The notes under the pieces are model-generated. The model had not been told where the DNA came from and searched no databases. It was given only the letters and a program-made list of their open reading frames with translations. Position numbers and translations under genes: made by a program. 42,102 bases of DNA from Brevinematia bacterium. Its GTDB lineage: Bacteria > Spirochaetota > Brevinematia > DTOW01. Each line of letters begins with the position of its first letter. Position 1 is the first letter of the stretch. Shown here in pieces: positions 1 through 39,350 of the stretch. The stretch covers positions 1-42,102 of the forward strand of contig JBCNVF010000074.1 in assembly GCA_039630355.1 (NCBI GenBank). The letters are read 5' to 3'.

Positions 1-41
1 AGTCTTATAAAACTTCAGATTTCCTCGAATCTAAGCTCAAC

Positions 42-262
42 AAATTCCAATATCCATTATGTGAGTATAGGTCAGACTCTAAACTTTTTGCCCACTAACT
101 CTCTTTATTTCTAGATTGCATCACCAGCCACAAAACTTCACCTCACATCATGCCTTTTGGGTGCTTATTAAGAAGAGTATTTACCCAGTCCCGACAGGGA
201 CTGCGAAAGAAATAAGAAGAAACTATACCTAGTCGTGAGTTTTAAGCTTCACTAGTTTTAGA
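42..262 (+). repeat. Dispersed intergenic element, copy 1
   Basis: This non-coding copy shares long stretches with gaps at 7768, 16832, 23905, 26213 and 34250. It starts with AAATTCCAATATCC, continues through a TCTAAACTTTTTG block and a TTTCTAGA block, and carries a perfect hairpin at 186-203 (CAGTCCC, loop GACA, GGGACTG) followed by a purine-rich tail. It lies upstream of the gene at 331 and fills most of the first 330 bases. No reading frame is convincing in it. Promoter signals for the next gene may lie in 265-305, but they are weak. Confidence 0.8.
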
Positions 263-4434: not shown

Positions 4435-4530
4435 CTACTCCAAGCGTAAACGGCATCATATTCAAAAAATCAGTCCTGAGAGGGACTGCGAGAAAAATAG
4501 AGAGAAGATCACCCTTAGTTGTATTAGTTG
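4435..4530 (+). repeat. Dispersed intergenic element, partial copy 2
   Basis: Only the hairpin end is clearly kept. At 4471-4488 the sequence is CAGTCCTGAGAGGGACTG, followed by CGAGAAAAATAGAGAGAAG. One stem base has changed from C to T, which still pairs with G as a wobble, and the tetraloop is GAGA instead of GACA. It lies in the divergent gap between the genes starting at 4348 and 4583. Confidence 0.6.
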
Positions 4531-7772: not shown

Positions 7773-7975
7773 GCAACAAATTCTGACCTTCATTAAGGTT
7801 CAACTTTTTGTTTGCTCACTCTCTTTGTTTCTAGATAGCATTCACCAATCACAAATTTCACTCCACACTAAGCTTTTAGGCGTTTATTAAGAAAAATGTT
7901 CACCCAGTCCCGACAGGGACTGCGAGAGAAATAAAAAAACCACACCTAACTGTTAGATTCTGAAATTTATCTCCC
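7768..7975 (+). repeat. Dispersed intergenic element, copy 3
   Basis: This copy fills most of the 300-base gap between proB and malQ. It shares CAACTTTTTGTTTGCTCAC, CTCTTTGTTTCTAGA, a TTTCACTCCACACTAAGC block and TTTATTAAGAAAAATG with the other copies. The perfect hairpin CAGTCCCGACAGGGACTG is at 7905-7922, followed by CGAGAGAAATAA and CTAACTGTTAGATT. Neither strand has a plausible gene here. Confidence 0.85.
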
Positions 7976-16831: not shown

Positions 16832-17015
16832 GTCAATAAAATCCAAAATTTACAACTAAGAATCTTTTCTTTATTTTTCTCGCAGTCCCTGTCGGGACTG
16901 AGTAAACACTTTCCCAACAAGCACTTAAGAGGCTTGGTATGAAGTGAAATCTCGTAATTAAACGAGTGCTTAAGAGCAGTGTTACCGACCGAAATTAGAA
17001 TCTACTGCCTTAAAG
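16832..17015 (-). repeat. Dispersed intergenic element, copy 4
   Basis: This copy is in reverse orientation and fills the gap between hisS and the recombinase gene, beginning directly after the hisS stop. The hairpin at 16883-16900 is a perfect CAGTCCCTGTCGGGACTG (reverse strand of the consensus). Next to it are blocks matching AAGTGCTT, AAGAGGCTTGGTATGAAGTG and AAATC of the other copies. Its outer end (TTATTGACTTT on the minus strand) resembles the right end of copy 6. It may also act as the hisS transcript end. Confidence 0.8.
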
Positions 17016-23819: not shown

Positions 23820-23904
23820 TATTCCAACCAAGTCTCTTCTAAAGACTAGAATTCTATAAAAAAGCCGAATTTTGTCTCTACTCTAAAGTATCAGCACTTA
23901 GCCA

Positions 23905-24098
23905 GTAAAGCCTAAAATCCACAATTGAGCGTTCTTTCACAGTCTCTGTCGGAATAGGCAAATACTCCCTTTGATCACACAAGAGGCTTAGGATGAAGTG
24001 AAATTCTGTGATTGACAAACGTTGTCTAAAAACAAAGAGCGTAAGTAAACAAAAAGTTTGAATCTTATCCACTCACCCAATGGAAATTGGAATTTATC
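23905..24098 (-). repeat. Dispersed intergenic element, copy 5
   Basis: A long copy in reverse orientation in the 488-base gap before the ABC exporter. The left terminus reads GATAAATTCCAATTTCC on the minus strand (about 24081-24098). The shared blocks GATAAGATTC, AAACTTTTTGTTTAC, CTCTTTGTTTTTAGA and TTTCACTTCATCCTAAGCC follow. The hairpin region (23940-23957) has drifted so that only part of the stem pairs. The 64-codon frame over it is not a gene. Confidence 0.8.
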
Positions 24099-25982: not shown

Positions 25983-26212
25983 TTATTGTTTATTGCTCTC
26001 CCATCTTATACTCGCTGGTTCTACTACTAAAGTTCTAAATGAGAATAGAAAAACTCAAAGCGAGGACTTAGTGATCACTGAGCACGAGTGGTAAAAGCCA
26101 TTAGCACAATAATAGCAAAGATCAAACTATCACTTCTCACAATCAACCTTCCCTACAAGGGGTATAGAGTAACAAAATACAAAATTTCAAGGCCTTATGA
26201 AGTTCAACAATA

Positions 26213-26425
26213 AATTCCAATTTCCATTAGGCAAGTAGATAAGATTCTAAACTTTTACTTGCTTACCTCCTCTAGTTTTCGCTAGTTACAAAACTTTACT
26301 TCATACCAAACCCCCTGAGTACTCATCAAGAAAAGCATCTACCCAGTCCCGATAGAAACTGCAAGAGGGGTAAAAGAAAATTATACTCAACTGTTAAATT
26401 TCGGAACTTATTGGAAATCCGAATT
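26213..26425 (+). repeat. Dispersed intergenic element, copy 6, with terminal inverted repeats
   Basis: This is the most complete copy, in the 485-base gap between two convergent genes. Left end AATTCCAATTTCCATTAGG (26213-26231) and right end CTTATTGGAAATCCGAATT (26407-26425) are imperfect inverted repeats, 15 of 19 positions. Between them lie GTAGATAAGATTCTAAACTT, TTTACTTCATACCAA and the hairpin region at 26344-26361, here with two stem mismatches. No frame inside is convincing. The first part of the gap (25983-26200) shows no other feature. Confidence 0.8.
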
Positions 26426-34184: not shown

Positions 34185-34249
34185 ATGATCCTCTGTAGAA
34201 CTTTGATTTTAAATAATTCAAAGTCTATCTTCCAAAATTCTAGCTAGAT

Positions 34250-34404
34250 AACCAATTGGAGACCAGATGAGTTTTCTTCTTAGCAAGCATCTAGGAAGTC
34301 TAGTGTGAAGTCAAGTTTTATAACCTGAGTACTATCTAGAACCAAAAAGAGCAAGTAAGCAAAAAGTTTAGAATCTTACCTATTTACCCAAATCGGAATT
34401 TATT
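34250..34404 (-). repeat. Dispersed intergenic element, truncated copy 7
   Basis: In the 328-base divergent gap between gatB and pfkA. On the minus strand it starts with AATAAATTCCGATTT and keeps GGTAAGATTCTAAACTTTTT, GCTTACTTGCTCTTT, TTCTAGATAGTA and ACTTGACTTCACACTAGAC. The hairpin end is missing: the similarity stops before the place of CAGTCCC. The rest of the gap (34405-34500) probably holds the pfkA promoter; TATACT near 34471 is a possible -10. Confidence 0.75.
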
Positions 34405-34512
34405 GCTTTTAGAATGGGTTTTTGAGTTTGTATGTTCTGAAGATTTATAATTTTGGTAGTTACTGGCAAAGTATACTTCTAACCTTAACAAACTCTAGTA
34501 TTGGAGGTTAAG

Positions 34513-39165: not shown

Positions 39166-39254
39166 TCTTTCCTCCGGAAAACACCTTCAAAGGAATTTTT
39201 TAGCGGTTTCGTATAAATTTTCAAGTTTGAAAGAAGTTCAACAGAGCCTAGTTA

Positions 39255-39350
39255 CAATTTGATTTGACGTATTTTTTTACTTCTCTCGCAGTCTCTGCTG
39301 GGACCGGAAAATATTTCCAATTCAACATGAAAAGCTTCTAAAACCTTAAG
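39255..39350 (-). repeat. Dispersed intergenic element, partial copy 8
   Basis: In the 329-base gap between the GH15-like gene and the amylase gene. On the minus strand the hairpin region (39289-39306) reads CGGTCCCAGCAGAGACTG, with one mismatch and one wobble in the stem, followed by CGAGAGAAGTAAAAAA as in other copies. The left half of the element is not recognisable. The rest of the gap shows only the G/C inverted repeat at 39469-39485. Confidence 0.6.

Follow-up and report, generated by a model that had tools for sequence, protein, structure and literature searches.

A MITE family in a Brevinematia genome with a putatively exapted palindromic site

Copies of the family in the window

The window analyzed here is the whole stretch of 42,102 nucleotides making up contig C74 (GC content 37%) of a 1.75-Mb draft genome in 126 contigs, referred to as G000. 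By hisS, its closest named relative is "Spirochaetes bacterium isolate RSWP19" (62% identity), which yields the same hisS match as the genome G004 compared below and is very probably identical with it. Eight intergenic gaps of this window, including those next to hisS, xerD, gatB, and the glutamate 5-kinase gene, harbor copies of a short repeated element. When the window is compared with itself by blastn, these gaps are connected in both orientations (best E 1e-27), and an iterated family profile matches exactly eight places (E 7e-51 to 8e-8) and nothing at E<=0.01 in a 616-kb reversed-sequence decoy. The initial annotation, made from the letters of the window, had described a related family in eight gaps and in both orientations, and this is borne out by the profile and its strands. 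However, the gaps are not all comparable: those at 4435-4530 and 39255-39350 hold only right-hand fragments, and copy 7 is devoid of its right third. In the following list, an internal palindromic site is called perfect when its letters match at all 14 stem positions, a palindrome matched on both strands being counted once.

38-252, plus strand: copy 1, near full length (profile E 7e-51), with a perfect site at 186-203
4470-4523, plus strand: copy 2, right-hand fragment (model positions 148-200 of 217; profile E 4e-8), with a near-perfect site of the near class, CAGTCCTGAGAGGGACTG, at 4471-4488
7774-7970, plus strand: copy 3, lying upstream of the glutamate 5-kinase gene, near full length (profile E 4e-45), with a perfect site at 7905-7922
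16834-17010, minus strand: copy 4, with an internal deletion in the left part (profile E 3e-33 as far as 16970, covariance model to 17010), with a perfect site at 16883-16900, between hisS and xerD
23903-24098, minus strand: copy 5, near full length (profile E 5e-41), with a decayed site (10/14)
26208-26413, plus strand: copy 6, full length, with ends CAATAAATTCC and GGAACTTATTG (profile E 1e-47) and a near-class site, CAGTCCCGATAGAAACTG, at 26344-26361
26199-26207 and 26414-26422: decayed 9-bp target-site duplication of copy 6, GAAGTTCAA and GAAATCCGA, identical at 6 of 9 positions
34259-34405, minus strand: copy 7, left two thirds only, palindromic site missing (profile E 4e-30)
39240-39315, minus strand: copy 8, right-hand fragment (model positions 139-216 of 217; profile E 8e-8), with a near site, CGGTCCCAGCAGAGACTG

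An identity with a known RNA family was rejected, as a tRNA is the only Rfam family matched at or above the gathering score in the window.

Structure, abundance, and history of the family

The family consensus is 216 bp long (CAATAAATTCCAATTTCCATTAGGTGAG...ACCTAATTGTAAATTTTGGAATTTATTG) and has no coding capacity. Its terminal inverted repeats are imperfect and extend over ~25 bp, with CAATAAATTCCAA... at both ends. Regarding target-site duplications, the two flanks are most alike over exactly 9 bp (identity 0.40 vs 0.27, z 8.2), and 13 of 82 full-length copies exhibit a 9-bp duplication matching at 7 or more of 9 positions, where 0.4 would be expected (e.g., GGAACCGGT at C93:52855 and TGGTTAACA at C26:14984). 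Prokaryotic MITEs are non-coding elements of ~70-300 bp that combine terminal inverted repeats, a target-site duplication, and a high copy number. All of these features, namely the length and non-coding nature, the repeats, the duplication, and a dispersed high copy number, are found here, and by its structure the family is a MITE.

The copies in G000 were analyzed mainly in 616 kb of DNA fetched around them, about one third of the genome, and their recruitment was partly biased toward copies bearing the palindromic core. In this DNA, 192 copies are detected at E<=1e-4, with ~12 more in further stretches; at least 152 copies are recovered in G000 by a sequence-only model, and the total is about 200. 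The proposal of a very abundant MITE-like family thus holds at the scale of the genome, and mere chance-level similarity, an outcome that would have spoken against it, is not what is found. Copies are dispersed in both orientations and are either full or truncated. Some are located at or near the ends of contigs C6, C24, C25, C44, C70, C90, C97, and C122, so that this mini-transposon family probably adds to the fragmentation of the assembly. No sequence match to the family was found in plasmid and phage records, one viral contig having the bare palindrome without the element, and an exact-core scan of GTDB genome contigs, a set from which the genome itself was possibly excluded, gave no match.

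Adjacent copies are separated by a spacer of exactly 9 bp in five cases, in tandem or inverted (C105:6627-7044, C122:4388-4805, C44:13377-13694, C17:21121-21499, and C63:19167), and by 8 or 10 bp in two more. As a 9-bp spacer corresponds to one target length, the edge of a resident copy seems to be favored by new insertions.

The relatives compared include three congeners, G001, G002 (the sister species), and G003, as well as G004, from the nearest genus of the same family. At least 44 copies, and 50 by the sequence-only model, are present in G002; their consensus shares ~85% identity with the G000 consensus, and target duplications are not detectable. No copy was detected by the model in G001, G003, and G004, where extremely decayed remnants would escape it, nor at E<=1e-6 in the rest of a 120-genome sample of the phylum. 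Copies of G000 share a mean pairwise identity of 67%, the best pair reaching 92%; most of each copy decays toward AT and few copies look recent. Fifteen genes have a copy upstream in both G000 and G002, and in five of them the facing end and the distance agree. These apparent shared insertions include gatB (copy 7 of the window, with the same end at 13 vs 14 bp from the start), manC, and L179/L196, whereas the other upstream copies differ in end or distance and, judged from these features, look independent. The family therefore appears to have moved both before and after the split from G002, and it is old, considering the mean identity and the insertions predating this split. Fixation at the same places in distant relatives, which had been considered as an outcome contradicting the MITE proposal, is not what is found; some insertions look shared with G002 and others do not.

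A single copy separates gatB from the phosphofructokinase gene in G000 (window 34185-34500); in G002 each of these genes has its own upstream copy, at different loci (L217; L198:11665-11861). Recombination between copies may have reshuffled the gene order in this poorly syntenic genus.

With regard to the transposase, the families PF00872, PF01609, and Y1 were looked for. The ends of the family may resemble those of IS256, which generates target duplications of 8-9 bp, a range fitted by the 9 bp observed here. The search for an IS256 partner gave no PF00872 protein in four genomes, and that for an IS4-type partner gave no PF01609 protein in G000 and G002. No long element between matching ends was found in the fetched DNA either, and the transposase with matching ends envisaged in the initial annotation is thus missing from these searches. 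The family would presumably have been mobilized in trans by a DDE-type transposase making a 9-bp staggered cut, undetectable in the genomes searched.

A palindromic site retained in part of the copies

Only 1.7% of the copy bases overlap predicted genes (gene starts being given by a simple codon model), in DNA that is 85% coding. The view that copies never lie inside genes is thereby correct for 98% of copy bases in the fetched DNA, but not in absolute terms. The number of copies per kb of remaining intergenic DNA is highest in divergent gaps (4.4), followed by tandem (3.0) and convergent ones (1.1), values to be taken as relative because the fragments were chosen around copies. The distance from the end of a copy to the start codon is typically about 50-75 bp, and -10-like boxes frequently occur 10-40 bp ahead of that codon, which places most copies just upstream of putative promoters. 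In many G000 genes, -10-like boxes (TATAAT and similar) are often only 10-35 bp before the start, which hints at leaderless or very short-leader mRNAs.

The internal site of 23 bp, C-CAGTCCC-GNNA-GGGACTG-CGAG, occupies model positions 147-169, with CAGTCCC-GNNA-GGGACTG at 148-165. Its state is bimodal, with 53 perfect, 24 near, and 75 decayed sites, and 43 copies without the site. In decayed copies, C and G of the site are lost at the rate of the remaining element, and from these rates about 1 perfect copy of 131 would be expected. That about a quarter of the copies are letter-perfect at the palindrome, a fraction biased upward because some copies were recruited via the core, suggests that the cell now uses the site. 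A control set is provided by copies whose left end is intact and which are detectable independently of the core: 19 of these 66 are perfect (P about 2e-25) and the divergence outside the site is equal (0.799 vs 0.796). Conservation in perfect copies extends to C147, G155, C166, and G167 (p 1e-4 to 1e-7), four positions that played no part in defining the class, so the retained site is asymmetric around a symmetric core; outside 147-169 the classes hardly differ, position 137 going in the opposite direction. In G002, by comparison, the site shows a unimodal decay (5-11 of 14), and two positional orthologues (L196, L203) are decayed where their G000 partners are perfect.

Outside the elements, no inverted GTCCC/GGGAC pair with a spacing of 0-11 bp was found in the fetched DNA. 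A methylation-type role of GGGAC was rejected, this motif being neither over- nor under-represented outside the elements. Perfect and decayed copies show no clear difference in gene orientation and distance context. The genes adjoining perfect sites are mixed housekeeping genes (e.g., recA, uvrC, gyrB, dnaK, EF-G, proS, glyQ, hisD, and rpoN) with no common pathway, and a pathway regulon was rejected on this ground. Two further candidates were discarded, namely a sigma-54 enhancer site, no -24/-12 signal being seen downstream of perfect sites, and an intrinsic terminator, neither strand having a T-run after the hairpin.

Taken together, the eight gaps represent one MITE family whose ~50 perfect sites would constitute an exapted DNA site under purifying selection, a reading to which a probability of roughly 0.6 can be given from sequence comparison. 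Purifying selection on the 23-bp site in G000 is strongly indicated by comparison, as 53 copies match at 14 of 14 stem positions without being younger than the rest.

It is unlikely, by comparison, that the family is a plain selfish MITE whose palindrome is needed for transposition (by binding the transposase or an accessory protein) and whose perfect copies are newer insertions without gain for the host. Perfect copies do cluster weakly into subfamilies (z 2.0-2.6) and include some close pairs (0.89-0.93), and internal IHF sites have been proposed to aid the transposition of Correia elements (PMC2229807). However, perfect copies do not have better target duplications (7 or more of 9 in 3/19 vs 5/49) or better conserved terminal repeats, and their left end is present less often (21/54 vs 55/75 in decayed copies, p about 1e-4, partly as a result of how short copies were found). 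Moreover, at least two of them lie at insertion points shared with G002, and perfect copies are as similar to one another (pairwise identity 0.666) as copies of different classes are, on which ground a recent subfamily was rejected as the sole cause of perfect sites. The state of the ends, duplications, and left end and the equal divergence thus indicate that the perfect class does not come from recent transposition.

Still less probable is a structured RNA, for which the element would be transcribed and kept for its fold as an sRNA, a processing site, or a leader. The consensus fold on the plus strand does beat all 200 shuffles (z -6.4), and the conserved loop letters G..A recall those of GNNA tetraloops. 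However, with perfect copies left aside, neither pairing nor double changes exceed the level expected under independence in any helix; only the palindrome deviates, via the perfect class. In addition, most sites precede putative promoters whose leaders would be very short, and the hairpin orientation relative to genes is unbiased. A mutational artefact, in which palindrome-directed repair by template switching would keep the arms matching, agrees with the conserved part being a palindrome and with compensated arms in a few copies (C54:7575, C46:2094, and C113:8215) but is very improbable, as repair keeps pairing rather than exact letters and 53 copies are identical in both arms, as the non-palindromic C147, C166, and G167 and the loop G155 are kept too, and as nothing of the kind is seen for the element in G002.

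With recent transposition, RNA structure, and palindrome-directed repair set aside, purifying selection on a DNA site remains. Of the retained regulatory or RNA role imagined initially, the RNA part finds no covariation and the retained part is narrowed to the 23-bp palindromic DNA site. This site would act as DNA upstream of promoters: copies landing upstream of genes may have been kept as putative binding sites as the remaining element rotted. The site is probably bound by a protein, and a global regulator or a chromosome-organizing protein can be put forward as the candidate sequence-specific binder, the general housekeeping neighbors pointing to a role that is global or structural rather than that of a pathway regulon. 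That about 50 identical directional sites for one protein serve to organize the chromosome or to regulate genes globally in this one species is a tentative and rather doubtful extension. If true, a mobile element would have seeded a genome-wide set of sites for one protein.

The only Y1/RAYT-like gene of G000 encodes a degenerate domain without one of the two HUH histidines. This 518-aa ORF (C44:20358-21911, minus strand; L242:1018-2574), found in G000 but in none of its three congeners, is like a relic Type IIG (PglX/Eco57I-like) methyltransferase in which a REP-associated Y1 transposase domain is inserted just before the NPPY place; motif I, NPPY, and one HUH histidine have been lost, yet the frame is still open. 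Its product is a candidate binder that could read the site as a hairpin, a weak lead drawn from co-occurrence in just four genomes. Another genome of the class, G013, harbors a 1108-aa Type IIG methyltransferase (L247:16-3342, minus strand) with an in-frame Y1/RAYT-like domain at the same insertion place before NPPY and an intact DHFHLL motif. A homologue from G036 has no Y1 domain, which points to an apparent in-frame insertion of the transposase domain in G013.

Comparison with known repeat families

Bacterial MITEs are frequently regarded as a store of regulatory sites, but the retention of a site can rarely be told apart from an effect of copy age. Here, in the same element, genome, and age, a 23-bp block is frozen in ~50 copies, whereas it varies freely in the others and in the sister species. 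The family is in this respect a natural experiment, which makes the recruitment of transposon DNA as protein-binding sites directly testable.

Correia/NEMIS elements of Neisseria are described as short non-coding elements with terminal inverted repeats, mostly intergenic and in >100 copies, some having an internal IHF site with a shown effect on the mtrCDE operon (PMC10969869; PMC2229807). The family reported here is likewise non-coding and intergenic, with inverted-repeat ends, >100 copies, and an internal site. Unlike Correia elements, which have a TA motif, it has an unrelated sequence, a 9-bp duplication, and a site kept while the surrounding element decays. The CIR repeats of Caulobacter and other alphaproteobacteria, intergenic and ~110 bp long, have a conserved GANTC (CcrM) motif (PMC2229807). 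They are similar to the present family as intergenic repeats with a conserved internal protein-recognition motif; however, theirs is a short methylation site conserved across species, whereas here a 23-bp palindrome is kept in one species and lost in its sister.

REP palindromes associated with RAYT also occur as short extragenic hairpins in tens of copies. In REP systems the palindrome stands free, has a GTAG or CGTC foot, and is served by an active Y1 transposase, whereas the present palindrome has a fixed place within a larger element that shows terminal repeats and a 9-bp duplication. Membership in the REP/RAYT group was rejected, the palindrome being always within the element, flanked by ACC/CGAG, and without a GTAG/CGTC foot, and the single Y1-like domain lacking one HUH histidine.

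Among other MITEs, Chunjie from Geobacter uraniireducens, QMITE1 and QMITE2 from Coxiella, and ERIC comprise many diverged full and truncated copies, and truncated QMITE2 copies come to resemble REPs (PMC10969869). The passages considered describe no frozen internal site of the present kind for these elements. While the family itself is new and of the known MITE type, it is in our view the separable retention of one site that sets it apart.
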